Source: Methylotenera sp.
GTDB taxonomy: Bacteria > Pseudomonadota > Gammaproteobacteria > Burkholderiales > Methylophilaceae
DNA length: 58,868 bases
Direction: 5' to 3'
Assembly: GCF_030653755.1 (NCBI RefSeq)
Contig: NZ_JAURYU010000054.1
Location: 1 to 58,868, forward strand
Position numbers and translations under genes: made by a program. Within the stretch, counting starts at the first letter, position 1, and each line of letters starts with the position of its first letter. Of the stretch, positions 31,391 to 49,960 are shown in pieces. Below the pieces are notes generated by a model. It was not told where the DNA came from. It did not search any database and was given only the letters and a program-made list of their open reading frames with translations.

Positions 31391-31717
31391 TCATATAGAT
31401 TGCGCCTCCTTAATTGGCAACAGTATGTAATGCATACCAGTGTATTTAAACGTTTGCTTCAATTCGGCTATTAAACCTTCTAATACAGGAAAACTAGCGT
31501 GCATCATCAATTGCACACGGCTTTGACGGCCAGCCACTTGTTCTAACATGCTCAGTGGCACATCGCCTTCAGCATGGTATCGACCATGCCCACTTACCTT
31601 ACTTGATGTAAAACCAGATAGCTCGTTTTTTTGTAACAATAAATCAACTAATATTTCTTCTAAACTCACTGGCGCAATGAGTATTAATAAGCCTTGCGCA
31701 ATTGTGTCTTGGGTCAT
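31391..31717 (-). CDS. DUF3240 small protein at the end of RND operon 1
   Basis: 108 residues without signal peptide or membrane segment. It resembles the DUF3240 family, usually found after heavy-metal RND pumps; I recall it as related in fold to PII/CutA proteins. It has one His-rich patch (SGHGRYHAEGD). Its start overlaps the pump stop by 4 nt. A role in regulating the pump or sensing its substrate is inferred from this coupling and from the PII-like gene in the same place in RND operon 2. Confidence 0.8.
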   Translation of the reverse strand: MTQDTIAQGLLILIAPVSLEEILVDLLLQKNELSGFTSSKVSGHGRYHAEGDVPLSMLEQVAGRQSRVQLMMHASFPVLEGLIAELKQTFKYTGMHYILLPIKEAQSI

Positions 31718-34700
31718 TTTGCACCCCCATTAAAAAACCTACGATAAAAAATTGGCAACAATACCAACGTCAGCGCGGTTGAACTCACCAATCCGCCAAT
31801 CACCACAATGGCTAAAGGCCGTTGAATTTCAGAGCCAGGACCAGTGGCAAATAGCAAAGGGATTAAGCCAAAGGCAGCAATACTGGCGGTCATCAGCACA
31901 GGTCTTAATCTACGCTTAGCGCCCTCCATTACGATAGAAGCCATTGCCATGCCTTGCGCTTGTAGCTGGTTAAAATAACTGACCATCACAACGCCATTAA
32001 GAACCGCTATACCCAATAAAGCAATAAAGCCCACCGACGCTGGGACGGATAAGTATTCTCCTGAAATCCACAGCGAGAACACGCCGCCAATCATTGCAAA
32101 TGGAATATTGGATAAAATCAATAACGCTTGTTTAATTGACCCAAACGTCGCAAATAACAATAAAAATATCAGGCCAATAGCGACAGGCACAACAACCGCT
32201 AAGCGTGCAGAAGCTCTTTGCTGATTTTCAAACTGCCCACCAAACTTCACAGCGTAGCCTTCATCAAACTTCACTTCCGCTTGCACACGCTGTTTAGCTT
32301 CCTCCACAAAACTGACCAAATCACGGTCACGTACGTTGGCTGTCACTACCACCAAACGCGCACCATGCTCTCTATCCACTTTCACAGGGCCTTCTTCACG
32401 CTCAATTTTAGCCACCGCTGAAAGCGGTATATTCGTACCATTCGCTAGTGTCAGCATTAAATTACCAAAATCTGTAGGCGATGCACGTAAGTCTTGACTA
32501 CCGCGAATCAACACTGGCGTTCGCCTTTGCCCTTCTTGCACCACGCCTAACTGCTTACCTTCAAGCTGTGCGAGCAATATGGATTCAATCTCAGTAATAC
32601 TCAAGCCAAGACGGCCAGCAGCCATACGATCTATTTTAATTTGTAGATATTGCACACCACTATTTTGTGGCGTGTACACATCTTGGCTACCCGCAATAGA
32701 CTCTAAAATTTTAACGATTTGCTGTGCTTTTGCATCGAGTGTAGGTAAATCTGGCCCAAAAATCTTAATGGCCAAATCACCACGTACGCCCAATATCATT
32801 TCATTCACACGCATATCAATCGGCTGCGTAAAGCTATAGGCCAAGCCAGGTAACTGGTTCATTACTTTACGCAACTCATCAATCAATTCATCTTTTGTCG
32901 CCATGCGCCATTCACTCATTGGTTTTAATACTAAAAAGTTATCCGTTTGATTTAGACCCATCGGGTCTAGCCCCAAATCATCAGAACCAACGCGCGAATA
33001 CACGCCTTTCACTTCAGGCACTTGACTTAAAATTGCCCGCTGAACATTCATATCTGTGATGATGGTTTGATTAAGGTTAATAGAAGGCAGCTTCTCTACC
33101 CCAATAATAATGTCACCTTCATCCATCACTGGCATAAAAGTTTTACCTATTTGGGTGTACACCACACCAGTGAACGCAAGCATCACAAGCGCAGCAATAA
33201 CAATCACTTTTGCATGCGCCAAACACCAGATCAATACTGGCTCATAAATGACCAATGCCTTGCGCACCAACCAAGGGTTGTCATGGCTGACTTCTTTTAA
33301 CAAGAATGAAGATAACACAGGAATTACCGTCAACGACAATATAAGCGAGCCAGCTAAAGCAAACATAATCGTCAATGCGACAGGTGTAAATAATTTACCT
33401 TCTAAGCCCTGCAATGTCAGCAAAGGTAAAAATACAGTAATAATAATGAGCACGCCCGCAGTAACAGGCACACTAACCTCACGCACTGCGCGATAAATAA
33501 TATGCATGCGTGGTAAAGAGCCAGCACGTTCTTTATCAGCTAAATGCGAGACGATATTTTCTACTACCACGACTGCAGCATCTACCAACATGCCTATTGC
33601 AATGGCAAGCCCACCTAAGCTCATTAAATTAGCAGACATGCCGAAATTGCGCATTAATAGAAAGGTAAACAATGCAGAAAGTGGCAGAATAAAAGCAATG
33701 GTGAGTGCTGCTCTAAAATCACCCAAAAACAAAACTAACAGAATTAACACAAGCACGACAGCCTCTAACAATGCTTTCGTCACAGTATTAACCGCACGCT
33801 CAACCAAACTACCACGATCATAAAACACATTAATCTTGACGCTCTTTGGTAACTGCGGGGCTATTTCAGCTAGCTTAGCTTTTACCCCCTCAACCACTTT
33901 TTGTGCATTTGCTCCGCGCAAACCCAACACCAACCCTTGAACAGATTCACTATCACCATTACTGGTCACAGCACCATACCGTGTAATAGCGCCAATACGC
34001 ACAGTGGCAACATCTGCCACTTTCACTGACATACCTTGTTCTGTGCGTACGATAGTGTTCTCAACATCTTCAATGCTTTTAAAACCACCTTCTGAACGCA
34101 CTAATAATGAACCCTCACCATCATTCAAGCGCCCTGCACCACCGTTTCGGTTATTCGTCTGAAGCACCTCTTGCAAACGATCTATCGCCACGCCTCGCGC
34201 ATACATCCGTGCGTTGTCTGGTACGATTTCAAAACTACGTACTAATCCACCCAGCACGTTCACATCCGCCACACCAGCAACCGTGCGCAACTGGGGGCGA
34301 ATCACCCAGTCAAGCAAGCTTCGTCGCTCTTGCAGGCTAAGCTCATCACTCTCTACAGTAAACATAAACATTTCGCCTAGCGGCGTTGTCATTGGCGCCA
34401 TGCCACCAGAGGCATTATCAGGCAAATTGGCCCAGACAGCATTTATGCGCTCTGAGACTTGTTGCCTAGCCCAATAGATATCGGTTCCGTCTTCAAAATC
34501 CACCGTAATGTCAGTAAGTGCATACTTAGCCACAGAGCGTAATCCTACTTGATGCGGCACACCTAACATTTCAACTTCAATCGGTGCGGTAATTCTTGCT
34601 TCAACTTCCTCTGGCGTCATACCAGGGGCTTTAACAATAATTTTAACTTGTGTAGAAGACACATCAGGAAAGGCATCAATCGGCAAAGCCTGATAAGCCA

Positions 34701-34788
34701 ACACACCTGCGGCCGCTAAACCGAGCGTAGCAATAATCATTAACAGCCGTTGAGTTAATGCAAACTGAATAAGTTTAGCTAGCATCAT
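31714..34788 (-). CDS. Heavy-metal RND efflux pump, CzcA/CusA family (operon 1)
   Basis: 1024 residues with the usual 12-helix RND layout and two large periplasmic loops. The start is LAKLIQFALTQRLLMIIATLGL, with the early motif DAFPDVSSTQVKI. The proton-relay helix is AIGMLVDAAVVVVENIVSH, and late motifs include ATGPGSEIQRPLAIVVIGG. The AIGMLVDAAVVVVEN sequence places it in the heavy-metal (HME) group but does not by itself tell copper/silver from cobalt/zinc/nickel. It overlaps the adaptor gene by 4 nt. Confidence 0.92.
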   Translation of the reverse strand: MMLAKLIQFALTQRLLMIIATLGLAAAGVLAYQALPIDAFPDVSSTQVKIIVKAPGMTPEEVEARITAPIEVEMLGVPHQVGLRSVAKYALTDITVDFEDGTDIYWARQQVSERINAVWANLPDNASGGMAPMTTPLGEMFMFTVESDELSLQERRSLLDWVIRPQLRTVAGVADVNVLGGLVRSFEIVPDNARMYARGVAIDRLQEVLQTNNRNGGAGRLNDGEGSLLVRSEGGFKSIEDVENTIVRTEQGMSVKVADVATVRIGAITRYGAVTSNGDSESVQGLVLGLRGANAQKVVEGVKAKLAEIAPQLPKSVKINVFYDRGSLVERAVNTVTKALLEAVVLVLILLVLFLGDFRAALTIAFILPLSALFTFLLMRNFGMSANLMSLGGLAIAIGMLVDAAVVVVENIVSHLADKERAGSLPRMHIIYRAVREVSVPVTAGVLIIITVFLPLLTLQGLEGKLFTPVALTIMFALAGSLILSLTVIPVLSSFLLKEVSHDNPWLVRKALVIYEPVLIWCLAHAKVIVIAALVMLAFTGVVYTQIGKTFMPVMDEGDIIIGVEKLPSINLNQTIITDMNVQRAILSQVPEVKGVYSRVGSDDLGLDPMGLNQTDNFLVLKPMSEWRMATKDELIDELRKVMNQLPGLAYSFTQPIDMRVNEMILGVRGDLAIKIFGPDLPTLDAKAQQIVKILESIAGSQDVYTPQNSGVQYLQIKIDRMAAGRLGLSITEIESILLAQLEGKQLGVVQEGQRRTPVLIRGSQDLRASPTDFGNLMLTLANGTNIPLSAVAKIEREEGPVKVDREHGARLVVVTANVRDRDLVSFVEEAKQRVQAEVKFDEGYAVKFGGQFENQQRASARLAVVVPVAIGLIFLLLFATFGSIKQALLILSNIPFAMIGGVFSLWISGEYLSVPASVGFIALLGIAVLNGVVMVSYFNQLQAQGMAMASIVMEGAKRRLRPVLMTASIAAFGLIPLLFATGPGSEIQRPLAIVVIGGLVSSTALTLVLLPIFYRRFFNGGAK

Positions 34789-35873
34789 TCAGCTCCTAAA
34801 CCCAACCAAGTACCTTTAATTGCAGCAATACCCGTCACTGCAATTTTTTCTGTGCCAACAAACGGTGCGTCAACGACAGCATCATCCCCTTGCTCTGAAA
34901 TAATCGTCACTTTAATCGGTTTAAACCCTGTCTTAGTCTGTACAAAAACTAATGCATTAGTGCCTTGCCTTGCAAGTGCTGACTTTGGCACACTAAAATA
35001 CTGTGATTGACCACCTAGGTTAATTTCCGCCTCGACAAACTGCCCTGGAGATAACTTTTCTGCACCTTTTGTAATTTCAGCACGCAAATGCAAAGTTTGA
35101 TCCGCTTTATTCACACTACGAATCACAGCGATCAAATGCCCACTCGCTTGCAATTTAGGTACCTGAACTTGCATCCCCTCTTTAACAAACGGCAAGCCTT
35201 CAAGCGGCGCGTGAATTTCAAGCCAAAGTGGCGACAATTTTGCAATTCGATACAAGGGCATCGCCATATCAACACGCTGCCCAGTGGTCACCATTTGCTC
35301 CAACACTTGTCCAGAAATTGGTGCAACCAAACTGATTCCACTTTGCATCCCTGTTGATGGGCTTAGCTTTGAAATAGCCCCATCGCCCATCCCTGCCAAC
35401 CTTAATGCCTGTTTACTCTGGGCTAAATTAGCGCTAGCCTCATCATGCGCACTTTCAGTTTCCAAATATCGACGCTGCGCAATAATGCCGTCCTTCAACA
35501 ATTCGGTATCCCTTGCCAAAGCTTTTGCCGCAAGTCTCTTTTGCGTTAGCGCCTGTAAATAATCACGCTGCAAACCTAATAAGTCTGGGCTAATCAAATG
35601 TGCAATCACTTGCCCCTTCTTAACTGTCTGTCCTGCTGCAACATGCATTTGGTCTAGCAAACCTGACTGTGGCGCGCTGACAATGCGCTCCTGACCAACT
35701 GGAATAACGATTTCAGCTGGAAAACGGCGGCTACTCAATAAATTATTTTTACCGATAGGACTAACGACCACGCCCAAGCTTTTCTGTTGTGCCAAGCTCA
35801 TTAATATATCGGCCGCCTGTGCATTGCCACTCAAAATGACCAACGTGGCAATCAATGATAAAAGATAGTTCAT
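34785..35873 (-). CDS. RND periplasmic adaptor (membrane-fusion protein), operon 1
   Basis: 362 residues from the ATG at 35873, preceded by TAGGAG; this start overlaps the outer-membrane-factor stop by 4 nt. A signal peptide ends NAQA. The order is beta-barrel, lipoyl half (QSGLLDQMHVAAGQTVKKGQVIAHL), alpha-hairpin (about 130-190), second lipoyl half (LVAPISGQVLEQMVTTGQRV) and C-terminal barrel. It links the pump to the outer-membrane channel. It lacks the His-rich N-terminal metal domain seen in some CusB/CzcB proteins. Confidence 0.9.
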   Translation of the reverse strand: MNYLLSLIATLVILSGNAQAADILMSLAQQKSLGVVVSPIGKNNLLSSRRFPAEIVIPVGQERIVSAPQSGLLDQMHVAAGQTVKKGQVIAHLISPDLLGLQRDYLQALTQKRLAAKALARDTELLKDGIIAQRRYLETESAHDEASANLAQSKQALRLAGMGDGAISKLSPSTGMQSGISLVAPISGQVLEQMVTTGQRVDMAMPLYRIAKLSPLWLEIHAPLEGLPFVKEGMQVQVPKLQASGHLIAVIRSVNKADQTLHLRAEITKGAEKLSPGQFVEAEINLGGQSQYFSVPKSALARQGTNALVFVQTKTGFKPIKVTIISEQGDDAVVDAPFVGTEKIAVTGIAAIKGTWLGLGAE

Positions 35874-37168
35874 GGCAACACTCCTACTGTTTGGTTGTAG
35901 CGGGCAACATCCCACTGCACTTGTATTTTCTGACTGGCAAATATGCGTTCAGATTCAAAAGCTCGCGCTTGCACTCTTAATAAGCTGACCAAGTCCGTCT
36001 CACCTAATTGGAACGCTTTACGTGCTAGCCTGACGCTCTCATCAGCAATCGTATTTTGCTGACTTGCCAAAACCAGCTCAGCACGGCTGACTTCTAAATT
36101 ATGTTCAGCTTCATGCATGGCTGTTTCTAAAGTATATTGAAGTGCTGCCTGCTCACTTAAGGCATTGCCTACCACCTGCTCGGCTGCTGCTTTAATCGGT
36201 GCAGCACGCGTATCGCCACCAAAGGGGATGCGTAACTTAACGCCTACACTTTCGTTGGCAGCCACATCAAACGCACCCTTAATACTGCGCATATTCAATA
36301 ACACTTGAAGATTCTCGCGCCCCTCTACCTGCGCAAGCTCTCGTTCAGTCTGTGCCAGGTTAAGCTTAGATTGAGCCTCAAGCCATATTGGTGATTGCTG
36401 ATAATCACTTAAAGTAGATTGTTGCTCTGTAAACTCAGCAGGTACTTCTTTTAGGCCTGTAAGCACATAATAACGGTGGCGCGCATGCATCACCTCAGCT
36501 TCAGCGCGCAAATGTTCTTGCTCAGCACGTAAAGATTCTTGTTGTGTCAGCATCACATCCGTTTTAGGCACTTCACCTGCTAAGAATCTTTTTTCCACAT
36601 CTAGTTGAAGTTGATTGGCGACCTTCAACCTATTGATAGCAAGCACTAACTGACTCTCGCTCAAAGCCAGTGACCAAAGCACATCGCGCAGCAAACCAGC
36701 CACCTGAAGCTTCAAACTTTCACGACTAGCCGTCAACGTGCTACTGCCCACGTCAGCAACTTTTAGGCGCTTATCACGCTGACTTGGCATCCAAACAGGT
36801 AGCTCCAACTCAGCTTGCCACTCACGCTCACCGCGTCCACCACCCAACGCATCATTTTGATGCATCACACTCATTGCGGGCGCTGATGGCAACATGGCAT
36901 GGGCGAGTGTATTTTTCGAGGCGACCCAAACATCCCTAGACTGCAATGTAGACTGCATAGGGTTTCGAATGAACGTTTTCTCTAACACCTCAGATAAACG
37001 CAGGTTTGGATTTACCTTTAGCGTATCTAGGTGGCGACCCTGATTAATATCAGCACTTAAAGATAAAGACACAGGCGCACTTTCAATGAGCATAGGCTCA
37101 GCATGAAGCATATTGAATAAACTTGCAGAGAACGCTATTACTAACCAGTATCGGCAGAAAATAGACAT
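35870..37168 (-). CDS. TolC/CzcC-type outer-membrane factor, operon 1
   Basis: 432 residues. A signal peptide ends about MLHA, followed by two long helical repeats of the outer-membrane efflux protein family (LRLSEVLEKTFIRNPMQ, KAFQLGETDLVSLLRVQARAFESE). It forms the exit duct of the tripartite heavy-metal pump. It is the first of three overlapping genes (factor, adaptor, pump), with a small exported protein gene 64 bp upstream. Confidence 0.9.
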   Translation of the reverse strand: MSIFCRYWLVIAFSASLFNMLHAEPMLIESAPVSLSLSADINQGRHLDTLKVNPNLRLSEVLEKTFIRNPMQSTLQSRDVWVASKNTLAHAMLPSAPAMSVMHQNDALGGGRGEREWQAELELPVWMPSQRDKRLKVADVGSSTLTASRESLKLQVAGLLRDVLWSLALSESQLVLAINRLKVANQLQLDVEKRFLAGEVPKTDVMLTQQESLRAEQEHLRAEAEVMHARHRYYVLTGLKEVPAEFTEQQSTLSDYQQSPIWLEAQSKLNLAQTERELAQVEGRENLQVLLNMRSIKGAFDVAANESVGVKLRIPFGGDTRAAPIKAAAEQVVGNALSEQAALQYTLETAMHEAEHNLEVSRAELVLASQQNTIADESVRLARKAFQLGETDLVSLLRVQARAFESERIFASQKIQVQWDVARYNQTVGVLP

Positions 37169-38772: not shown

Positions 38773-40608
38773 ATGGAACAAAAACTCACATCACTTGAAA
38801 TCGCTCGGCAAACGTTAATTAAGCTTTCTAAAAGCCAACGACCTCCGACTCCCGAGAACTACAGACAAGTTTATGATGAAATTGCTGGCACGGCTTCATC
38901 AAGCACCAAAGCAATTTTGGACAATACCCTCAACAAGGTACTGTTAGAGAAGAGCAAAGGCAACGCCAAATATGCGGCTATTGCAAAAAAAATCTCAAGC
39001 CTAATCGACAAACATGATGCTGTTAATCTAGATACACAACTTCGTGCACTTATATCTAATGATGCTGAAAACGAAAGTGACATTCAGTGGGGCACATTGT
39101 TACGCTACTTACTCAAGCAGTTAGACCTAAATCACACAGGGTTAACTGCCGCATCTAAAAAAGATGGGCTAAATCGTGTTATCACAAATTTTGGAAACGA
39201 TTCATCTCAACTAGCGGAAAAAGTTCAGACACTCATCACGTCGTGGGGAGAAGGTAAAACTGCAAACATTGAAATATCGCCTAACGAACTTTCCAAACCA
39301 ATCCATCATGGTCAATCATCTAAAAAAGATGAGGCATCACTGTCTATACATCATCATGCTGACAAAAATGATGTCAATCACGCAGAAGCAGCTATCGCTT
39401 GGCGTGACATACTGATTAGAACCATTAGGATTCTTGTCTTACCAAAATTTACTGACACACCGAGTGCTGCGAATCGCGTTGAAGAGTTAATTAAAGAAGC
39501 CGAAGCTGCGCATACGCTTGAGCAAATTAACCAACTTAACGGCTCTTTACGGTCAACCCTGCTTCGAGCAGAAATGCAAACAGATTCACAACGTAGAATG
39601 CAAGAAGCATTGATTGAAATATTGCGACTGCTAGTGGCCAGCATGGCAGATTTAACCATTGAAGATCAATGGCTACACGCACAAATTATGATTGTGAAAG
39701 AAATTGTTTCAAAACCACTTAAAATTGATACAGTTTATAACGCTGAAAGTAGCTTAAAAGAACTTATTTTCAAGCAGTCTCAGATTAAACCAGGTCTGAT
39801 TGAAGCCAAAGAAACGCTGAGAAGCATGGTCAGCACATTTGTTAGCCGTCTGGCAGACATTACAACCTCTACAGGCAACTACCAAAGTAAAATTGAGGAA
39901 TACCATAATCAAATTAATGCGGTAGAAGACATCTCTGAGCTTAATACCATTTTGGAAAGCTTAGTGGGTGATATTGGTGAAATGAATAATGAAGCAAAAG
40001 CTAATCACGTTACGCTCTTAGAATCACAGAAAAAAGCAGAAGAAGCTGAAAAGAAAATCAATGAACTGACACTTAAACTTGATTATATTAGCGAAGCCGC
40101 GCATGAGGATTTCTTAACTGGTGCATTAAACAGACGTGGTATGGATGAAGCACTCATTCGTGAGTTTGAGCGCTCTGACAGGCACGGCACGCCACTATCG
40201 CTGGCAATGCTAGACGTTGATCACTTTAAGAAAATTAATGACACCATGGGGCACTCAACAGGTGATAAAGCACTCGCCCACTTATCTAAAGTTGTTAAGA
40301 GCATTTTACGCAGTACTGATGTGCTAGCACGCTATGGTGGTGAGGAGTTTGTTATTTTGCTACCAGGCTCAAATCAGAAGGATGCTGTCACTGTGGTTTC
40401 AGGCTTGCAACGTGACTTAACTAAAAACTTCTTCTTGCACAACAGTGAGCGCGTACTCATTACATTTAGTGCAGGGGTCGCAGAGCGCTTGCATGGAGAG
40501 TCTGTTGATAGTGTTTTACCACGTGCAGATGCGGCATTATATTTAGCTAAGCAATCTGGAAGAAACCGAGTCATTGGTGCTGAACAACCTACAGCTATTT
40601 CTGAGTAA
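38773..40608 (+). CDS. Soluble GGDEF diguanylate cyclase with long helical N-terminus
   Basis: 611 residues, no signal or membrane segment. Residues 1-430 are almost wholly helical, with no recognised sensor domain; a coiled coil at about 415-440 (ESQKKAEEAEKKINEL) leads into the cyclase. The GGDEF domain (about 450-600) has DFLTGALNRRGMDE, AMLDVDHFKKINDTMGHSTGD, the active loop YGGEEF and an RxxD I-site (RSTD) five residues upstream. It should make cyclic di-GMP and be inhibited by it. The N-terminal region (PPTPENYRQVYDEIAG) resembles that of other uncharacterised proteobacterial cyclases. It is a lone gene ending at a shared bidirectional terminator. Confidence 0.9.
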   Translation: MEQKLTSLEIARQTLIKLSKSQRPPTPENYRQVYDEIAGTASSSTKAILDNTLNKVLLEKSKGNAKYAAIAKKISSLIDKHDAVNLDTQLRALISNDAENESDIQWGTLLRYLLKQLDLNHTGLTAASKKDGLNRVITNFGNDSSQLAEKVQTLITSWGEGKTANIEISPNELSKPIHHGQSSKKDEASLSIHHHADKNDVNHAEAAIAWRDILIRTIRILVLPKFTDTPSAANRVEELIKEAEAAHTLEQINQLNGSLRSTLLRAEMQTDSQRRMQEALIEILRLLVASMADLTIEDQWLHAQIMIVKEIVSKPLKIDTVYNAESSLKELIFKQSQIKPGLIEAKETLRSMVSTFVSRLADITTSTGNYQSKIEEYHNQINAVEDISELNTILESLVGDIGEMNNEAKANHVTLLESQKKAEEAEKKINELTLKLDYISEAAHEDFLTGALNRRGMDEALIREFERSDRHGTPLSLAMLDVDHFKKINDTMGHSTGDKALAHLSKVVKSILRSTDVLARYGGEEFVILLPGSNQKDAVTVVSGLQRDLTKNFFLHNSERVLITFSAGVAERLHGESVDSVLPRADAALYLAKQSGRNRVIGAEQPTAISE

Positions 40609-40769: not shown

Positions 40770-41096
40770 CTAGGCCTGTGTAAGAATCCACTTCACAATC
40801 GTTTTGATGTCATCATCTTTCACCTGAGGACTATTCGGTGGCATTGGCATTTTACCCCAAACTCCACCACCACCTGCCTTCACTTTAGCTATCAAACGTG
40901 CCTCTGCGGATGCATCACCTTTATACTTAGTGGCAATATCTTTGTAGGCTGGCCCAAGAATGGCATTTTGTATGCCATGACACATAAGACACCCACTTTT
41001 TTGCGCAAGCTTTTCTGCTGATTCAGAGGCATTTGCCACTTGTGCAGTCAATATCAAAGCGCTTAACAATACTGTTTTCTTGAATAGTTTATACAT
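40770..41096 (-). CDS. Small periplasmic c-type cytochrome, likely XoxF partner
   Basis: 108 residues. A signal peptide ends about VANA, with one haem-binding motif CLMCH and an axial Met in KMPMPPN, as in cytochromes c551/c552. It lies 23 bp downstream of xoxF and shares its transcript, so it may accept electrons from the dehydrogenase. The usual XoxG is larger, so it is either a minimal XoxG equivalent or a general electron carrier. Confidence 0.85.
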   Translation of the reverse strand: MYKLFKKTVLLSALILTAQVANASESAEKLAQKSGCLMCHGIQNAILGPAYKDIATKYKGDASAEARLIAKVKAGGGGVWGKMPMPPNSPQVKDDDIKTIVKWILTQA

Positions 41097-41119: not shown

Positions 41120-43006
41120 TTATAGGCTGAATACGTTCATTGCACCACCACCAGGTGCAGCGTTGTACTTAACTAGATCTTTATAACCACCAGCAGCACC
41201 CAAGCCATCAGTAGCATTAGTTAACCCTAGGTTCATCGCCACACCAGCCCAACCACCAATGCCAGACAATACACCTACGTACTGCTTACCTTTATGGCCG
41301 TAAGTGATGGCATTACCAACGACGCCAGAACCTACTTGGAATTTCCACAACTCCTTACCTGAGTTAGCATCAACCGCTTTAAACCAGCGATCAAGTGTGC
41401 CGTAGAACACTAAGTTAGTAGAGGTAACAAGTGCGCCGCCCCAAGCTGAGAACTGCTCTTTTTTGTACCAAGCTGATTTACCTTTTAAGCCATCCCAAGC
41501 CATAAAGCCACCCATCACACCATCTGGCCCAGGGAACATGGTTAAGGTTGAACCTACCCATGGCTGCCCAGCAACGTATTTAGACTCTACTGGCTCGTAT
41601 GTCATGCAAACATGATTAAGCGGTACGTAGAACATGCCTGTTTTTGGTGAGAATGCCGCAGGTTGCTGATCTTTTACACCTAACGCTGAAGGACAAATCC
41701 CTAGTGCGTTGTAATCTTGGTGGGTTGAAAACTTAGGATCTTTTATTGGTGTACCAGTTTTAAGGTCAACACTTGATGCCCAGTTAACAAACGGATGCAT
41801 TTTATTCGCGACTAACAATGATCCATTGGTACGGTCAAAAGTGTAACCAAAACCGTTACGGTCGAAGTGGCTAGCAAGTTTTTTGCCTTTAGAATCCCAC
41901 AGGATGATTTCATTCATACCGTCGTAATCCCACTCATCATGAGGCGTCATTTGATAGCCCCATTTCGCCATGCCTGTATCTACATCACGTGCAAAAATCG
42001 TCATAGACCACTTGTTATCGCCAGGTCGTACATCTGGGTTCCATGTGCTTGGGTTACCTGTACCGTAGTACATCAAGTTCAATTTAGTGTCATATGAGTA
42101 CCAACCCCAAGTTGGGCCGCCACCATTCTGCCAGCCATCTTTTCTTGCTTGTGGTTTGAGCCAAGTTTTAATACCAAGATCTTTCTCTGGGAATTTCAAT
42201 TGGTCTTTAGGTAAGGCTTTAAATGAACCACCAATTTTATTACCGCCGTTTACGTCTTGGTAAAGTGATAACGCGCTGTAGTGCGGATTATCTTTATTAA
42301 AATCATCACCAATCAATACATCTTGGTCAGAGCCTGTGCTGTATGCACGCCAAACTAAAGCGCCATCTTTAATGTTATAAGCAGTGATATAACAACGCAC
42401 ACCATACTCACCACCTGAACAGCCAGTAATCACTTTGTCTTTAATCACATGTGGTGCATTGGTATTTGATGCGCCTTCTTTCGTATTGGTAACTTGCGTA
42501 TCCCAGAGTTTTTTACCAGTTTTAGCATCTAACGCAACTAAAAGACCATCATTTTGTTGCAAGAAAATTTTGCCATCACCATAACCCAAGCCACGGTTTA
42601 CGTTATCGCAACATAGTAAAGCTTGTACTGATGGATCTTGTTTAGGGAAATAAGACCAAAGAATTTTTTGATTATTATTTAAATCTAGTGCGTAGATGTT
42701 GTTAGGAAACGCGGTATGGATATACATCACACCATTGATCACCAATGGCGCACCTTCGTGACCACGATTAACACCTGTTGCAAATGACCAGGCAAGTTTC
42801 ATGTTTTTCACATTGCCTTTATTGATTTGGCTTAGACGGCTATATCCAGTATTGCTAAAATCCTTACGTGGATGTGCCCACTGATTATCATCATTCATGA
42901 GTGTTGATAATTCATCTGCAGCAAAAGCTGGTGTGCTTAACATGCCAAATAGACCAGCACTTAAAGCGATGCTCAAGCCAAGTCTACGTTTAAATTGATG
43001 ATTCAT
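41120..43006 (-). CDS. xoxF: Lanthanide-dependent methanol dehydrogenase XoxF
   Basis: 628 residues. A signal peptide ends AFAAD, then an eight-bladed PQQ quinoprotein propeller follows. Diagnostic residues are the vicinal disulfide in ALLCCDNVN (about 131), the catalytic Asp360 in HDEWDYDG, and Asp362 two residues later. That second Asp separates lanthanide-using XoxF from calcium-using MxaF, which has Ala there. WNPDVRPGDNKWSMTIFARD is also XoxF-like. It oxidises methanol in the periplasm. No MxaI-like subunit or xoxJ gene is adjacent. A near-consensus sigma-54 promoter lies upstream, with a divergent sigma-54 activator gene. Assignment to clade XoxF4 is likely from the taxon but not shown. 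Confidence 0.93.
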   Translation of the reverse strand: MNHQFKRRLGLSIALSAGLFGMLSTPAFAADELSTLMNDDNQWAHPRKDFSNTGYSRLSQINKGNVKNMKLAWSFATGVNRGHEGAPLVINGVMYIHTAFPNNIYALDLNNNQKILWSYFPKQDPSVQALLCCDNVNRGLGYGDGKIFLQQNDGLLVALDAKTGKKLWDTQVTNTKEGASNTNAPHVIKDKVITGCSGGEYGVRCYITAYNIKDGALVWRAYSTGSDQDVLIGDDFNKDNPHYSALSLYQDVNGGNKIGGSFKALPKDQLKFPEKDLGIKTWLKPQARKDGWQNGGGPTWGWYSYDTKLNLMYYGTGNPSTWNPDVRPGDNKWSMTIFARDVDTGMAKWGYQMTPHDEWDYDGMNEIILWDSKGKKLASHFDRNGFGYTFDRTNGSLLVANKMHPFVNWASSVDLKTGTPIKDPKFSTHQDYNALGICPSALGVKDQQPAAFSPKTGMFYVPLNHVCMTYEPVESKYVAGQPWVGSTLTMFPGPDGVMGGFMAWDGLKGKSAWYKKEQFSAWGGALVTSTNLVFYGTLDRWFKAVDANSGKELWKFQVGSGVVGNAITYGHKGKQYVGVLSGIGGWAGVAMNLGLTNATDGLGAAGGYKDLVKYNAAPGGGAMNVFSL

Positions 43007-43091
43007 TTTGCATCCCCAAATTATAAAAATTATTTAAGTTACGTATTACTAATTTCATGCATTGAAACGACATTGGTAACAGTGCTAATAT

Positions 43092-43107
43092 TGCAATGGG
43101 CATGCCA
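43092..43107 (-). promoter_or_regulatory. Sigma-54 (-24/-12) promoter of xoxF
   Basis: Read on the minus strand the sequence is TGGCATGCCCATTGCA. It matches the TGGCAC-N5-TTGCA consensus at 10 of 11 defined positions, with correct GG-to-GC spacing. Transcription would start near 43081, giving a ~75-nt leader before xoxF. Confidence 0.8.
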
Positions 43108-43237
43108 ACACAATAAAAAGCCATCATTTAAATAAATTTTTATAAAAAAATTATTTAAAATCAATAAACTAAAAATCTCATGGAAATAAAGATTGCTTCC
43201 ATGCTGAAAGCATTTAACTTTGAACACTGTGTCAAAA

Positions 43238-43267
43238 TTGAACATCTGTCACGTGACAGGTGTTCAA
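43238..43267. promoter_or_regulatory. 30-bp palindrome, likely activator-binding site for xoxF
   Basis: TTGAACA-T-CTGTCACGTGACAG-G-TGTTCAA is symmetric over 30 bp with a single mismatched pair. It lies ~130 bp upstream of the sigma-54 promoter and ~25 bp before the activator gene, the usual place for an enhancer-binding-protein site and for autoregulation. A weaker related element (TTTGAACAC-T-GTGTCAAAA) is at 43219-43237. Confidence 0.75.
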
Positions 43268-43292
43268 TCATTTAAGGTAAGTAGCCAACAAT

Positions 43293-45233
43293 ATGAGCAA
43301 TGCCACAACAGATAAAACTCCAGCTATCCTGCAAGCCAGAAAAGAATTTTTGAGCAATGGCAATGTAGAACAAGGGGCAATTGCTGAAGCGATTGAGCGC
43401 TCATGGCGGCGCTGCATGGCGAATGGTATAGACACAAACTCGCCACAAAGTCTGGAAATTGTGACCGCGCAAGAGCTTGCTCTGAAACGTGAGCAAAATC
43501 AGCAACTGCTTAAGCTTGCGCAACCTGAGATGGAAACACTCAACGAGCAAATCGCACACACACGTAACGTAGTGATATTAACGGACGATGAAGGTGTGAT
43601 TTTACATAGCCTTGGCGGGCATCACTTTCTGAATGAAGAGCAACGCATTGCTTTGTCTGCCGGCGCATCTTGGCATGAAAATCATAGAGGCACCAATGCG
43701 ATTGGTACTGTGCTAATTGAACAATCAGCGCTCACGGTACAAGGTGCCGAGCATTTTATGGCATACCATCACTCATTAAGCTGTTCTGCCGTCCCTATTT
43801 TTGGTGCTGAGAATCAGCTGATTGCCACATTAGACGTTTCTAACGACTCCAACACATCACAGCAACATACCCTAGCGTTGATAAAAATGTCTGCACAGAT
43901 GATTGAGAATCGACTGTTTTTAGCAAGCCACCAAGGTGATGTGGTACTACATTTTCATGCTCGCCCAGAGTTTATCGGCACACTATGGGAAGGCGTCGCC
44001 ATTTTTACGGAAGGTGGTCAACTGGTCGCTATCAATAGAAGTGGTCAATTTCAACTCAGCTTAAACACAAACGCATCTAATACAAAAAATGAGCGTGCGT
44101 ATCCCCAAGTTAACTTTGACCAGTTATTTGATATTCCATTTACCAGTCTGGTAAGGCAGACTGGGAGCACAGATAAACTAATCGTGCCCTTAAGGTTAAA
44201 TAATGGTGCACGTATTTATGTACAAGTAGAACTGCTGCATAAAAAACAATGGATTAGCACAACACCTCCTGCTATCGTAAAAAGAACCAGTGCTGCTAAT
44301 CTGGATTTATTAGATAGTGGTGATTCAAAAATTTCACGTGCTATACAACAAATAAAACAAGTACTGTCCCGCGACATCCCTATTTTGATTCAGGGTGAAA
44401 CGGGGGTTGGTAAAGAGTTATTCGCACGTGCGATACATGAAGCGAGCGCGCAGCACAAAGGCCCATGGATTGCCGTGAATTGTGCAGCATTACCAGAAGG
44501 CTTAATTGAAGCGGAGTTGTTTGGCTATGAAGAAGGTGCTTTTACGGGTGCGCGGCGTAAAGGTAGCCCTGGAAAAATTGAGCAAGCGAACGGCGGTACT
44601 TTATTTTTAGATGAAATTGGCGACATGCCACTCTCGTTACAAGCAAGGTTACTGAGGGTGCTCCAAGAGCGTACCGTTACACCTTTAGGCAGTACAAAAA
44701 CGATTCCTGTTAGCTTCTCGCTCATTAGTGCCACTAATTTAAAACTAAAGGAAAAAGTAGATAGCGGCGCTTTCCGTAGTGACCTCTATTACCGCCTTAA
44801 TGGCTTGAGCGTAGCGCTGCCGCCTTTGCGAGAGCGCTCTGATTTGCAGGCACTGATTGATGTCATTCTACATATCGAGCAAGCTGGCAACATAGAAATC
44901 ACTCCTGAAGTCATGGGGATATTCAAAGCGCATTCATGGCCAGGCAATATCCGTCAGTTACATAATGTCCTACGGACGGCATTAGCATTAGCAGATGGGT
45001 TGCCTATTAGCACACTGCACCTGACTCAAGATTTTATTGATGAGATATCCACGCCGCTTCTAGCAAACATCAATGACTCTCCATCGAAATTGTTAGATTT
45101 AGGTGACGTAACAAGTCACGCAATACAACTTGCCATGCAGGCTGAGTCTGGCAATATTTCCGCGGTAGCGCGAAAGCTTGGCATCAGCCGCAACACGCTT
45201 TATCGCAAACTAAAAACGATGGGGCTTAGCTAA
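43293..45233 (+). CDS. Sigma-54-dependent activator (AcoR-like: GAF, AAA+, Fis)
   Basis: 646 residues. The N-terminal region with a GAF-like sensor (about 60-210) resembles AcoR-type regulators. The AAA+ domain (about 335-555) has Walker A GETGVGKELFARA, the sigma-54 contact loop GAFTGA, Walker B GGTLFLDEIGDM and an arginine-finger region. The C-terminal Fis-type HTH is NISAVARKLGISRNTLYRKL. It is divergent from xoxF, whose promoter is of sigma-54 type, and a large palindrome lies between them. It very probably activates xoxF in response to an unknown small ligand. Confidence 0.92.
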   Translation: MSNATTDKTPAILQARKEFLSNGNVEQGAIAEAIERSWRRCMANGIDTNSPQSLEIVTAQELALKREQNQQLLKLAQPEMETLNEQIAHTRNVVILTDDEGVILHSLGGHHFLNEEQRIALSAGASWHENHRGTNAIGTVLIEQSALTVQGAEHFMAYHHSLSCSAVPIFGAENQLIATLDVSNDSNTSQQHTLALIKMSAQMIENRLFLASHQGDVVLHFHARPEFIGTLWEGVAIFTEGGQLVAINRSGQFQLSLNTNASNTKNERAYPQVNFDQLFDIPFTSLVRQTGSTDKLIVPLRLNNGARIYVQVELLHKKQWISTTPPAIVKRTSAANLDLLDSGDSKISRAIQQIKQVLSRDIPILIQGETGVGKELFARAIHEASAQHKGPWIAVNCAALPEGLIEAELFGYEEGAFTGARRKGSPGKIEQANGGTLFLDEIGDMPLSLQARLLRVLQERTVTPLGSTKTIPVSFSLISATNLKLKEKVDSGAFRSDLYYRLNGLSVALPPLRERSDLQALIDVILHIEQAGNIEITPEVMGIFKAHSWPGNIRQLHNVLRTALALADGLPISTLHLTQDFIDEISTPLLANINDSPSKLLDLGDVTSHAIQLAMQAESGNISAVARKLGISRNTLYRKLKTMGLS

Positions 45234-45642: not shown

Positions 45643-45753
45643 AAGAAGAATAAACTTTAGGGGCTGTAGTAGATTAGTACAGTAATTTTTAGTTATATTA
45701 ACTGCGTCATCTATTAAAGCAATTAAGCCCTAAGTATGAAAAGGATGATATCA

Positions 45754-46335
45754 ATGATAGGCATATTACTAGCGGCTGGTTTTTCACGTCGATTCGGGTC
45801 GTCTGACAAGCTATTGCAAGCTTTGCCAGATGGTCGCCCAATCGCAGTGGCCTCTGCTCAGAATCTCATTGAGGCAATGCCAACTAGCATTGCAGTGGTG
45901 CGGGCAGAAAATATTCAGCTTGCTGAATTATTACTCAGTATCGGCTTTAACATTGTGGCATGTGAAGAGAATAAGCAAGACATGGCAGATAGCCTAGCGA
46001 TGGCTATTCGTTTCTCATCTAAGTTTGAAGCCGCAAAAGACGGTTTTTTGATTGCTCTGGCAGATATGCCATATATTAAACCTGCTACGATTAGCGCCGT
46101 TGCTGAGCAGCTATCAAACCATGCTAATCATTCGATTGTCATCCCTACCTATGAGGGTCAACGTGGCCACCCTGTTGGCTTTGCTACCCAATATCGTAGC
46201 GAACTAGAAAACCTACATGGTGATGAAGGTGCGCGCGCTATTATCAAACGATATCCAGATGCAGTTTATATGCTGCCATGCAAGGATGTGGGAATTTTAG
46301 CGGACATTGATACACCCGCAGATTTAAAACGCTAA
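45754..46335 (+). CDS. MocA-like molybdenum-cofactor nucleotidyltransferase
   Basis: 193 residues from the ATG at 45754, preceded by AAAAGGA; an in-frame ATG at 45736 would add six. It has the nucleotide-binding motif LLAAGFSRRFGSSDKL, the metal-binding ALADMPYI and the substrate loop GQRGHPVGF, all typical of MocA/MobA. MocA attaches CMP to molybdopterin for xanthine-oxidase-family enzymes, matching the molybdenum hydroxylase encoded next to it on the opposite strand. Confidence 0.88.
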   Translation: MIGILLAAGFSRRFGSSDKLLQALPDGRPIAVASAQNLIEAMPTSIAVVRAENIQLAELLLSIGFNIVACEENKQDMADSLAMAIRFSSKFEAAKDGFLIALADMPYIKPATISAVAEQLSNHANHSIVIPTYEGQRGHPVGFATQYRSELENLHGDEGARAIIKRYPDAVYMLPCKDVGILADIDTPADLKR

Positions 46336-46349
46336 GCCGCACAACTTAC

Positions 46350-47309
46350 TTAGCTTACCAAACCAATCGTCGTCTGTTGTGCCCGCACTTGAATCAACTC
46401 AGCAAGAATGGCAACAGCAATTTCGGCAGGTGTACGGCTACCAATACGCAACCCCACTGGGCCGCGCATCGTTGCAATTTCTGATTCACTCAAATCAAAC
46501 ATACGTAAACGTTCACGGCGCTTTTCCTGATTTTTATGTGAGCCAAGTGCGCCTACATAAAACGCATCTGACTTTAACGCCTCTAGCAAGGCCATGTCAT
46601 CTAGCTTAGGGTCATGTGTCACTGCCACTATCGCCGTATGCGCATCTGGCTCAATATCCAGCACCACATCATCAGGCATGCCATATACCAAGGTTGCACC
46701 CTCTACATGCCACTCATCTCGAATTTCTTGGCGTGGCTCACATACCAGCACATCAAAATCCAAGGCCTGCGCCATACTTGCTAGCGTAGCACCAAGTTGA
46801 TTAGCACCGATAATCAATAAGCGCCATTGCGGTCCAAAGTAGCTATGAAACCAATTACCCTCGATTCTTGGCGCACCTTCAGGCAATACTTCCGCGAGCT
46901 TAATTTCCCCTGTCTTTATATTCACAGAGCGTTTGGTCAGTTTACGATGACGTAAGTTCTGAATAATCGGCTCCAACTGAGCTACCACATTCAACGGCTC
47001 TACAAATATCTGTAATTGCCCGCCGCATGGGATTCTAAAGCGCTGTGCATCTTCACGGCTAACACCATACTCCATGATTGTAGGTTGCGTGGGCAAAGTT
47101 CGATTGCGCGCTTTGTCGGCTAAATCATCTTCAATACAACCACCAGAAACTGAGCCTATCAAATGCCCATCCTCACGCACCACCAGCACCGCACCAGGCA
47201 GACGTGGCGCAGAGCCCCACGTCTTTACTACGGTAAACAAATGCGCCTGATACCCATCATTCAGCCAATCAAGCGCTCTGTGTAATACTTCTAAGTCTGC
47301 TGATTTCAA
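46350..47309 (-). CDS. xdhC: XdhC/CoxI-family molybdenum hydroxylase chaperone
   Basis: About 319 residues from a TTG at 47309, just after the hydroxylase stop. An upstream ATG at 47378 would overlap the hydroxylase by 65 nt and is less likely. The XdhC_CoxI domain is clear (VVKTWGSAPRLPGAVLVV, GSVSGGCIEDDL), and the Rossmann domain has IIGANQLGATLASMAQAL and VAVTHDPKLDD. XdhC proteins bind and sulfurate the molybdenum cofactor and insert it into the enzyme. It closes the iorA-iorB-xdhC operon. Confidence 0.88.
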   Translation of the reverse strand: MKSADLEVLHRALDWLNDGYQAHLFTVVKTWGSAPRLPGAVLVVREDGHLIGSVSGGCIEDDLADKARNRTLPTQPTIMEYGVSREDAQRFRIPCGGQLQIFVEPLNVVAQLEPIIQNLRHRKLTKRSVNIKTGEIKLAEVLPEGAPRIEGNWFHSYFGPQWRLLIIGANQLGATLASMAQALDFDVLVCEPRQEIRDEWHVEGATLVYGMPDDVVLDIEPDAHTAIVAVTHDPKLDDMALLEALKSDAFYVGALGSHKNQEKRRERLRMFDLSESEIATMRGPVGLRIGSRTPAEIAVAILAELIQVRAQQTTIGLVS

Positions 47310-47313
47310 GGGA

Positions 47314-49491
47314 TTAAGCCAGCTGATTGCCAATCGGCAATTGACGGATACGTTTACCTGTAGCCGCAAAAATTGCATTAGTCACCGCAGGGGCAACAGG
47401 CGGCAAGCCAGGCTCACCAACGCCACCCATTTTTTCAGTGCTTTGCACGATGTGTACTTCAACCTTGGGCATATCGCTCATGCGCATCACGAGATAATCA
47501 TGGAAGTTAGACTGCTGAACCTTACCTTCTTTAAAGGTAATTTCACTTTGCATGGCAGCCCCTAAGCCAAAAGAAATCGAAGACTCCATTTGTGCTTTTA
47601 GAGAATCAGGGTTTACTGCAAGACCGCAATCAATGGCACACACCATACGATGCACTTTCACTGCGCCTTGATCAACAGAGACTTCCGCGACCTGCGCAAC
47701 AAAACTGCCAAAAGACTCATGCACCGCAATGCCGCGAGAAACACCTTTAGGCAATGGCTTGCCCCACTCGGCTTTCTCAGCGGCTAAATTAAGTGCCGCT
47801 AAATGACGTGGGTGACCTTTCAAAAGCGCACGACGGTAATCTAATGGGTCTTTCTTCGCACTATGTGCAAGCTCATCAATCAAACTTTCCATCACAAATG
47901 CAGAGTGGCTATGGCCAACTGAACGCCACCAAAGCACAGGAATACCAGTTTTCACGGTATGCAAACTCACATGATAGTTAGGAATTTCCTTCAAATACGG
48001 TGAATCTGCAATGCCCTCTACTGAGGTAGCATCAACCCCATCTTTAATCATAAAAGCTTCAAATGGCGTCCCTAACATAATTGACTGACCTACCGTCACT
48101 TGCTCCCAAGCTGCTGGAAAACCATTGGTATCCAAGCCGATTTTGGCTTTGTGTAAATACATTGGGCGATAATAACCGCCCTGCACATCATCCTCACGAC
48201 TCCAAACTGTTTTCACTGGCACACCTGCCGCTTTAGCCACATGCACCGCCTCTGACACAAAGTCAGCCGCTGGATTTGCACGTCGCCCAAAACCACCACC
48301 TAAGAAAAGCGTATGTATTTTGACTTGCTCAGGCGTCAACCCTAATATTTTTGCCGCAGCTTGCTGGTCTGTTGTTTGCATTTGCGTGCCTGTCCAAATT
48401 TCACAAGCATCTTTCTCAATACGGACTGAACAGTTGAGCGGCTCCATCGGTGAATGTGCTAAATAGGGCAATGCGTATTCAGCTTCGATTAACTTATCAG
48501 CTTTAGATAACGTAGCTTTGCTATCACCCAATTGTGCTGCGACCAAGCCAGGATTAGCCGCTTTGCTTCTAAAGTCCTCAAGCATCGCTTTTGAATCAAG
48601 GCCTGCGTTGGGACCTAAATCCCATTCGACCTTCAGTGCTTCACGGCCTTGTTTTGCTGCCCAATAATTATCAGCCACCACCGCAACACCCGTAGGCACT
48701 TGCACCACCTGCTGAACACCTTTGACTTGCTTGGCAGCACTTGCATCAAAAGACTTTACTGAGCCACCGAATACTGGTGAACGCGCCACCATGGCAGTCA
48801 TCAAGCCATCGAAATGAACATCCTGCCCAAATACCGCAGTGCCATTTATTTTTTCCGGGCCATCCAGACGCTTAGTCGCCTTGCCGATCACTTTCCAATC
48901 TTTAAGGTCTTTTAGCGTAACGGCTTTCGGCGTTTCTAACTTGGCTGCAGCTTCAGCGAGATCGCCATAGCTAATTTTCGAGTCGCCGCTAATGACAAAA
49001 CCATTTTCTGTTTTAAGATTAGCAGCAGGAACACCTAATTGCTCAGCAGCGGCACCAATTAATAACTGTCGCGTCAGCGCGCCAGCTTGACGATAGCGGT
49101 CAAACTCAGACCAAGTGGTAGAAGATCCACCCGTGATTTGAATGCCGTAAGCAGTATGAAGATATGCAGGGGATGCAGAAGCATGTTCTACTCTAATCTT
49201 GCTCCAATCGGCATCCAACTCCTCTGCAATCAACATGGGCAATGTTGTCCAAATACTTTGTCCCATCTCGCTATGTGCAAGCATCACAGTGATTGTATTA
49301 TCGGTGCCAATCCGTAAAAAGGCATTGGGTGCTGGGAGCGTTGCTTCACCCGCATTGCCAGTTTCTTTCGCAGCACCCGGCAGTAAAAAGCGTTTAGCTT
49401 GAGGAATTGAAAACGCAATCACAAGGCCACCAACCACTAACGCTGAGGCTTTAATGAAAGTACGTCTAGAGATATTTAAAGGTGCAGTCAT
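47314..49491 (-). CDS. Molybdenum hydroxylase large subunit (isoquinoline 1-oxidoreductase beta type)
   Basis: 725 residues. The N terminus has a Tat signal with [15 protein letters not shown], so the enzyme is exported to the periplasm. Molybdopterin-binding blocks include [38 protein letters not shown]-like sequence, [19 protein letters not shown] and the C-terminal [19 protein letters not shown], in which Glu is the catalytic base. It is the IorB/aldehyde-dehydrogenase type, without an FAD subunit. The substrate, an N-heterocycle or an aldehyde, cannot be decided from sequence. Operon with the 2Fe-2S subunit (10 bp upstream) and xdhC. Confidence 0.88.
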
Positions 49492-49501
49492 GAATATCTC
49501 C

Positions 49502-49960
49502 TTAAGCTAATTTAGTGGCAGCAGCATGAATCGCTGCACGGATACGCGGATAAGTACCACAACGGCAGATATTTCCGCTCATGGCTGCATCAATATCGGC
49601 ATCAGTTGGTGTTTGGTTGCTAGTCAGCAAAGCTGTCGCGGCCATAATTTGGCCGGATTGGCAGTATCCACACTGCACCACATCCACCTCACTCCAGGCC
49701 GCTTGAACCGCTTGGCCAACTTTATCATTTTGAATATCTTCAATCGTGGTAATTTTTTTACCAACTGCAGCAGCGATAGGCGTAACACACGAACGAATTG
49801 GCTCCCCATCTAAATGAACCGTACAGGCACCACATTGCGCCATGCCACAACCAAACTTGGTACCAGTCAAATGCATGACATCTCTTAATGCCCACAGTAT
49901 CGGCATATCATCAGACACATCTAGCTTCTCTTCTTTACCATTGATATTCAAAATAATCAT
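49502..49960 (-). CDS. Molybdenum hydroxylase 2Fe-2S subunit (IorA type)
   Basis: 152 residues with two [2Fe-2S] sites: the plant-type ferredoxin motif in GTKFGCGMAQCGACTVHLDG, and the C-terminal helical site CGYCQSGQIM plus MSGNICRCGTYPRIR. It passes electrons from the molybdenum centre to an outside acceptor. It has no signal peptide and presumably rides with the Tat-exported large subunit. It is the first gene of the operon, divergent from a LysR regulator. Confidence 0.93.
   Translation of the reverse strand: MIILNINGKEEKLDVSDDMPILWALRDVMHLTGTKFGCGMAQCGACTVHLDGEPIRSCVTPIAAAVGKKITTIEDIQNDKVGQAVQAAWSEVDVVQCGYCQSGQIMAATALLTSNQTPTDADIDAAMSGNICRCGTYPRIRAAIHAAATKLA

Follow-up and report, generated by a model that had tools for sequence, protein, structure and literature searches.

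The window analysed here, contig NZ_JAURYU010000054.1 of a Methylotenera sp. assembly (GCF_030653755.1) over its full length of 58,868 nucleotides, carries xoxF (positions 41120-43006, minus strand), which encodes a lanthanide methanol dehydrogenase of the XoxF4-2 type with 628 residues, and a divergently oriented gene for a sigma-54 activator (43293-45233, plus strand). The two are separated by an intergenic region of 286 bp (43007-43292), from which an earlier sequence-only reading of this DNA had proposed sigma-54-dependent expression of xoxF. The dehydrogenase scores 644.6 bits against TIGR03075, above the cut-off of this family of pyrroloquinoline quinone (PQQ) methanol/ethanol dehydrogenases, and its closest relative in the PDB is a XoxF (6oc5). 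Its HDEWDYDG stretch aligns with the XoxF structures, and the second Asp of the DxD therein is presumably the lanthanide-binding residue of XoxF. Immediately 3' of xoxF lies a small cytochrome c gene (40770-41096, minus strand; PF00034), and a homologous cytochrome directly follows xoxF in 23 of the 41 activator-linked loci described below. We take this pair to correspond to Mmol_1770 (XoxF4-2) and Mmol_1769 of Methylotenera mobilis JLW8, that is to an orthologous enzyme with its small cytochrome, on the basis of gene order and by taking two of the genomes compared, G069 and G084, to be those of M. mobilis JLW8 and M. versatilis 301. The genome of the window also encodes a second XoxF4 (contig C9), which is 74% identical to the one studied here, and more distant PQQ enzymes. 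Mmol_1770 bears the name XoxF4-2 in PMC6028718. Enzymes of the Mmol_1770 clade are expected to be about 70% identical to the Mmol_2048 type.

Promoter, upstream element and activator

The putative sigma-54 promoter of xoxF, TTGGCATGCCCATTGCA (43092-43108, minus strand), has one mismatch to YTGGCACGN4TTGCW and matches at 13/13 positions once C or T is accepted at the seventh base; the sigma-54 consensus YTGGCACGrNNNTTGCW, with its GG and GC elements at fixed spacing, is quoted in PMC5874634. When sites are scored over the 13 positions of YTGGCAYG-N4-TTGCW, it is the only one on either strand of the window to reach at least 12/13, and the near-consensus element of the sequence-only reading is confirmed. 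Its -12 GC falls at 43093-43094, and the minus-strand transcription start is therefore expected about 12 nt further on, near 43081, in agreement with the sequence-only reading. Upstream of the second XoxF4 gene and of three other PQQ genes in the genome, the best site scores only 8-9/13. The exact pattern TTGGCAYGN4TTGCW occurs at a single place in the 2.49-Mb assembly, namely the xoxF promoter, and rpoN is found in the same genome. Allowing up to one mismatch yields 43 places, compared with 11 when the pattern is reversed as a control, so that single near-matches come cheaply. As one isolated match is weak evidence, it is the cross-family comparison that carries the weight.

Upstream of this promoter we identified a candidate enhancer (43219-43268), whose palindrome the sequence-only reading, correct as to promoter and activator, had missed. 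It comprises a 32-bp near-palindrome (43237-43268), the candidate activator-binding site, whose 16-nt arms are 94% complementary and without a gap, and a second part on its xoxF side, TTTTGACACAGTGTTCAAA on the minus strand (43219-43237), recognised by conservation of the core. The conserved core itself, ATGTTCAATTTTGACACA (43228-43245, minus strand), overlaps both parts, follows the pattern TGTTCA-N4-TGACACA and has its centre some 128 nt away from the -24 box in the window. Alignments of eight promoters from the genus of the window and, separately, of eight from genus g19 share as conserved islands the enhancer blocks, a block resembling ATTGATTTTAA and the two promoter boxes at -24 and -12. 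The middle block, an AT-rich stretch with TTAAAATCAAT (43127-43175) that is conserved in the two aligned genera, may, by its resemblance to the consensus for integration host factor (IHF), be a site at which this protein bends the DNA between enhancer and promoter. Also between enhancer and promoter, at 43194-43212, the xoxF strand carries a small hairpin that resembles a terminator; it may shield xoxF against upstream transcripts, or it may be due to chance. The half-site pattern of the palindrome, TTGAACANNTGTNNC, has five exact occurrences in the genome, two of them contributed by the palindrome's own arms. If one mismatch is allowed, it occurs at 20+25 places, compared with 12+18 for the reversed control, and since these counts are not far above the control we infer no wider regulon.

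The product of the divergent gene is an AcoR/DhaR-like sigma-54 activator, in which N-terminal helices are followed by a GAF domain, a PAS-like region, an AAA+ domain and a Fis-type helix-turn-helix (HTH). Pfam matches cover residues 72-208 (GAF), 344-507 (Sigma54_activat, PF00158) and 609-641 (HTH_8, PF02954), and the AAA+ domain retains Walker A at residue 368, GAFTGA at 415 and Walker B as LFLDE at 437. The intact GAFTGA loop claimed earlier is thus present, and these features, together with the enhancer-like site that the protein is predicted to bind, are those of a bacterial enhancer-binding protein. The GAF domain named in that reading is likewise present; the ligand sensing attributed to it is suggested by the presence of this domain. 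Over residues 29-263 the protein resembles the sensory portion of DhaR (4lrx, E 2.7e-07), as in the N-terminal sensory regions of AcoR and DhaR, and the AlphaFold model (mean predicted local distance difference test (pLDDT) score 80, predicted template modelling (pTM) score 0.49) adds a strand-helix sensory region at residues 217-314. The best 50 rows of a Foldseek search with this model are all sigma-54 activators or their AAA+ parts, a result that does not inform on the GAF pocket. The best NCBIfam match, DhaR, reaches 312.4 bits against the 551 required, and 'AcoR/DhaR-like' is therefore a label for the architecture rather than a proven membership.

Activator-linked and unlinked xoxF4 genes in the Methylophilaceae

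We compared 150 genomes of the family, in which homologues of the activator (E<=1e-150) occur at 54 places in 48 genomes; all 54, the window included, were examined, and because the genomes are related, counts of loci do not represent independent events. A XoxF4 (76-100% identical) divergently adjoins the activator at 41 of the 54 places and is lacking at the other 13. The best -24/-12 score upstream of the 41 linked genes is 13 at 13 loci, 12 at 24 and 11 at 4, so that all of them reach at least 11/13 and 37 reach at least 12/13; of 4,100 dinucleotide shuffles of the same upstream regions, 23 attain at least 12 and 242 at least 11. As controls we used 61 other XoxF4 genes, 60 of them picked so as to cover both genomes that have the activator and genomes that lack it, the last being the second copy in the genome of the window, with the absence of an adjacent activator judged within the fetched stretch of at most about 2.5 kb upstream. 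Four controls were set apart as not clean: in L106 and L108 an activator is cut by the contig end (scores 12 and 13), L107 has an adjoining activator with a partial match (score 11), and L105 is considered below. Among the remaining 57, with no activator in the fetched stretch, none reaches 12/13 and two reach 11/13, their sites lying 291 and 330 nt away from the gene. The notion that the -24/-12 match of the window is a chance resemblance, for which the abundance of near-matches in the genome might speak, is contradicted by this difference between linked and unlinked genes, and we regard its probability as negligible.

The upstream element has a parallel distribution. Its core, defined from the A1 group of linked sequences and matched with up to three mismatches in tests that leave out L096, L097 and L100, is found in 34 of 36 A1 linked promoters, where it lies 109-151 nt away from the -24 box; among 4,100 shuffles it appears in 117. 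It occurs in none of the 57 unlinked XoxF4 promoters and in none of eight promoters beside aldehyde dehydrogenases, here termed 'N'. Promoter, upstream element and divergent activator thus co-occur across the family and are missing from the XoxF4 copies without an activator. The arrangement of the window is accordingly conserved in other Methylophilaceae; the sigma-54/GAF route to methanol oxidation that had been suggested for xoxF is supported by this co-occurrence for certain XoxF4 subtypes only, here XoxF4-2.

We therefore interpret 43007-43292 as a sigma-54 promoter-enhancer unit through which the divergent GAF-type activator would switch on xoxF4-2 and the cytochrome gene, and assign this interpretation a probability of roughly 0.87. 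It predicts, from sequence, that the activator binds the upstream element and that xoxF expression depends on both the activator and RpoN.

Several points weigh against this interpretation. The presence of the core in A1 is partly built in by its definition, though its contrast with the unlinked copies is not. Two A1 promoters, L063 and L072, are without it, and with up to three mismatches it is found in only one of five A2-type promoters; one fixed enhancer site across the family is disfavoured by this poor match, and the A2 promoters have what, judged by eye, is a related but altered element. At L062 (G145) the XoxF match is split in two and the activator match has an internal stop, for which reason this locus may be decayed or misassembled. 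L105 (G018:C9), a XoxF4-2 gene, has a promoter scoring 13 and the enhancer core, with no activator within 2.4 kb. At least five further sigma-54 activators are encoded in the genome of the window and could act on the xoxF promoter. Lastly, the published directions of XoxF4-2 expression disagree. PMC3728764 reports that the Mmol_1770/1769 pair changes its expression with conditions, which in itself favours our interpretation, with mmol_1770 4-6 fold up in situ; its M. glucosotrophus homologue is 100-fold up in situ, though at a low level, whereas in M. versatilis expression of the homologue is very low throughout. PMC6028718 describes XoxF4-2 as methanol-specific and, citing earlier work, as lower in communities. 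Neither text, as far as accessible, names a regulator, promoter or sigma factor for Mmol_1770.

Alternatively, xoxF4-2 might be controlled mainly from a sigma-70 promoter or by a two-component system that responds to lanthanides, the sigma-54 site being a minor accessory promoter. In other methylotrophs, the control that has been described is the lanthanide switch, which works through two-component regulators (PMC11845868), and the 401-base region examined contains two weak sigma-70-like sites, of which one is on the strand of xoxF. Shuffles of the region yield a mean of 1.9 such sites by chance, and the strict association of the -24/-12 box and the enhancer core with activator-linked copies leaves this alternative improbable.

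A further alternative is that the activator chiefly serves another target, which could be its own gene or the molybdenum aldehyde-oxidase genes nearby, with its proximity to xoxF being incidental. The palindrome lies 24 bp ahead of the activator's own start codon, a position that makes autoregulation plausible, and some relatives of the activator adjoin aldehyde dehydrogenases instead of xoxF. Against it, aldehyde-oxidase genes are present in the fetched flanks at only 6 of the 54 places (the window, L052-L055 and L062), on which ground we rejected them as the true target, while xoxF is next door at 41; the -24/-12 box is oriented toward xoxF in all 41, the window has no second site of comparable score, and two of the five exact half-sites of the genome are the arms of this very palindrome. 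We hold this alternative to be more improbable still than the preceding one, and retain the sigma-54 promoter-enhancer unit serving xoxF4-2.

Beyond the activator, positions 45736-49960 carry MocA-like, XdhC-like and two-subunit molybdenum aldehyde-oxidoreductase genes, which recur in the flanks of L052-L055 and, on the other side, of L062, with no match in the other fetched flanks. Downstream of the cytochrome is a gene for a GGDEF diguanylate cyclase (38773-40608), which is kept in L052-L055. Further along are membrane-fusion and outer-membrane efflux genes (HlyD_D23, OEP; 34785-37168), next to a large open reading frame (31714-34788) that may be a resistance-nodulation-division (RND) pump.

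Relatives of the regulator and of its DNA site

In a tree of 102 XoxF4 proteins, the enzyme of the window groups with 38 further activator-linked XoxF4 in a single clade of 39 A1-linked rows (Shimodaira-Hasegawa-like approximate likelihood ratio test (SH-aLRT) 97), which places it in the Mmol_1770 clade if G069 is M. mobilis JLW8, and the five A2-linked enzymes form another (100). The linked and unlinked states require two changes on this tree, in which the XoxF of L062 is represented by a 477-residue piece. The A2 loci (L090-L093 and L095) hold a second XoxF4 clade with its own activator branch and changed enhancer, and their cytochrome gene is on the far side of the activator. In a tree of 69 activators, from which L169 (stop codon) and L100 (no open reading frame picked) were left out, a single clade (99) holds the 41 XoxF-linked proteins together with two orphan copies, the aldehyde-dehydrogenase-linked L089 is next to it and nine more unlinked activators are outside; several outgroup rows are long and their placement is unsure. 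The outgroups came from an activator scan of named organisms that gave at least 80 loci, many of them matching the AAA+ part only, and no Methylophilaceae title appears among the matches listed in that scan. The orphan copies, L081 and L082 (G062:C1), are identical, lie 143,032 bp apart and have no xoxF alongside; the neighbour of the one inspected is something other than an aldehyde dehydrogenase. This looks like a large duplication in which the target was lost.

Nine of the 13 activators without xoxF adjoin a divergent open reading frame of 506-517 residues with an aldehyde-dehydrogenase-like start, two of which were confirmed by Pfam; the other four activators are L096, L097 and the two orphan copies. 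The 'N' promoters beside these genes contain GTCTCA or TGAGAC in seven of eight cases and two or more copies in six of eight, a multiplicity seen in 42 of 4,000 shuffles. At least one copy occurs in 2/5 A2 and 6/57 unlinked XoxF4 promoters; at the A1 promoters it occurs in just 1/36, and the AcoR-type enhancer repeat (TTTGAGAC) is accordingly not a feature of that group. The repeat is missing, too, at L089, the activator most closely related to those of xoxF. Activators L094, L098, L099 and L101-L104 stand beside aldehyde dehydrogenases with AcoR-type repeats, and most of their -24/-12 boxes end in CTGCT. These aldehyde-dehydrogenase-linked activators make up a sister system whose predicted DNA site is another one. 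The activator tree, the neighbouring genes and the distribution of the repeat together suggest that the xoxF regulator probably descended from a regulator of aldehyde dehydrogenase, with a change in its DNA site.

In genome G018, the xoxF of L105 has been relocated with retention of promoter and core, and now sits downstream of apparent molybdate ATP-binding cassette (ABC) transporter genes; the activator L089 is elsewhere in that genome. It is possible that L089, from its position beside an aldehyde dehydrogenase, drives this relocated xoxF in trans. Outside the family, Paraburkholderia franconis (L168:10929-12653) encodes a PQQ alcohol dehydrogenase whose gene is some 3 kb away from that of a related activator and is preceded, 80 nt upstream, by a -24/-12 site scoring 11/13; the pairing seen in the Methylophilaceae may recur here. 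A search of plasmids returned 417 records with XoxF matches, all of them less than 60% identical.

Proposed control of XoxF4-2 and its place among known systems

Under the proposed mechanism, the activator would bind the palindromic upstream element (43219-43268), roughly 110-150 bp from the -24 box, and a bend in the DNA between enhancer and promoter would bring it to the polymerase. Upon binding of a small ligand by its sensory part, it would remodel the sigma-54 RNA polymerase at 43092-43108, resulting in transcription of xoxF4-2 and the downstream cytochrome gene. Judging from the relatives of the activator, the ligand may be a short alcohol or aldehyde, with methanol or formaldehyde the most likely candidates. 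More tentatively, and at somewhat less than even odds, we suggest that XoxF4-2 is a substrate-gated enzyme, unlike its sister XoxF4-1, with sigma-54 and a cytoplasmic GAF sensor, responsive to molecules that resemble methanol or formaldehyde, acting separately from the lanthanide switch. In that case no XoxF before it would have been placed under a one-component sigma-54 regulator. This sensor would have been recruited from an aldehyde-dehydrogenase regulator, with its site passing from an AcoR-type repeat to a new palindrome, and control in trans, as in G018, would be possible.

Parts of this scheme have counterparts in known systems. AcoR-type sigma-54 activators serve acetoin and aldehyde operons, and the signal expected for the AcoR/DhaR subfamily is acetoin or a similar small carbonyl. 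AcoR, encoded divergently from aldB in Phytobacter, likewise combines GAF, AAA+ and Fis-type HTH domains and acts on a -24/-12 promoter of a dehydrogenase gene (PMC12648084). Here the target is a lanthanide methanol dehydrogenase, and the A1 enhancer is without the repeat of the AcoR site (CAGTTTGAGAC), which the GTCTCA/TGAGAC repeats on the aldehyde-dehydrogenase side do resemble. In Azospirillum brasilense, the PQQ alcohol dehydrogenase gene exaA is under sigma-54 control (Singh et al. 2017, as cited in PMC6115532), but its product is ExaA and not XoxF. The soluble methane monooxygenase of methanotrophs depends on RpoN and MmoR, and so shares with the present system a sigma-54 promoter, a dedicated activator related to the GAF-bearing ones and a function in one-carbon oxidation (PMC5874634), while differing in enzyme, step and bacterial group. 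The lanthanide switch (MxbDM, MxcQE and MxaY; PMC11845868) also controls the choice of methanol dehydrogenase, through inverse regulation that depends on lanthanide; it consists of sensor kinases and response regulators, in contrast to the one-component sigma-54 activator described here. The figure legend of a 2024 review lists a GAF/sigma-54 regulator in a xox gene map that includes M. mobilis, and as the window also has the GGDEF gene at 38773, the xoxF-activator neighbourhood has probably already been drawn in print. Our literature search, which did not cover the spelling 'sigma 54', found in the accessible texts nothing on this xoxF promoter, its enhancer, the restriction to XoxF4-2 or sigma-54 control of any xoxF.

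Methylophilaceae can carry several copies of xoxF whose regulation differs across pure cultures, sediment and communities fed with methane, for which the accessible text of the published studies offers no mechanism (PMC3728764, PMC5723320, PMC6028718). A sigma-54 unit confined to the activator-linked copies gives a testable reason why XoxF4-2 behaves unlike XoxF4-1. If our interpretation is correct, the unit would provide an inducible promoter for methanol-related biosensors. For the family itself, it would place a one-component route beside the lanthanide switch at an environmentally important step.
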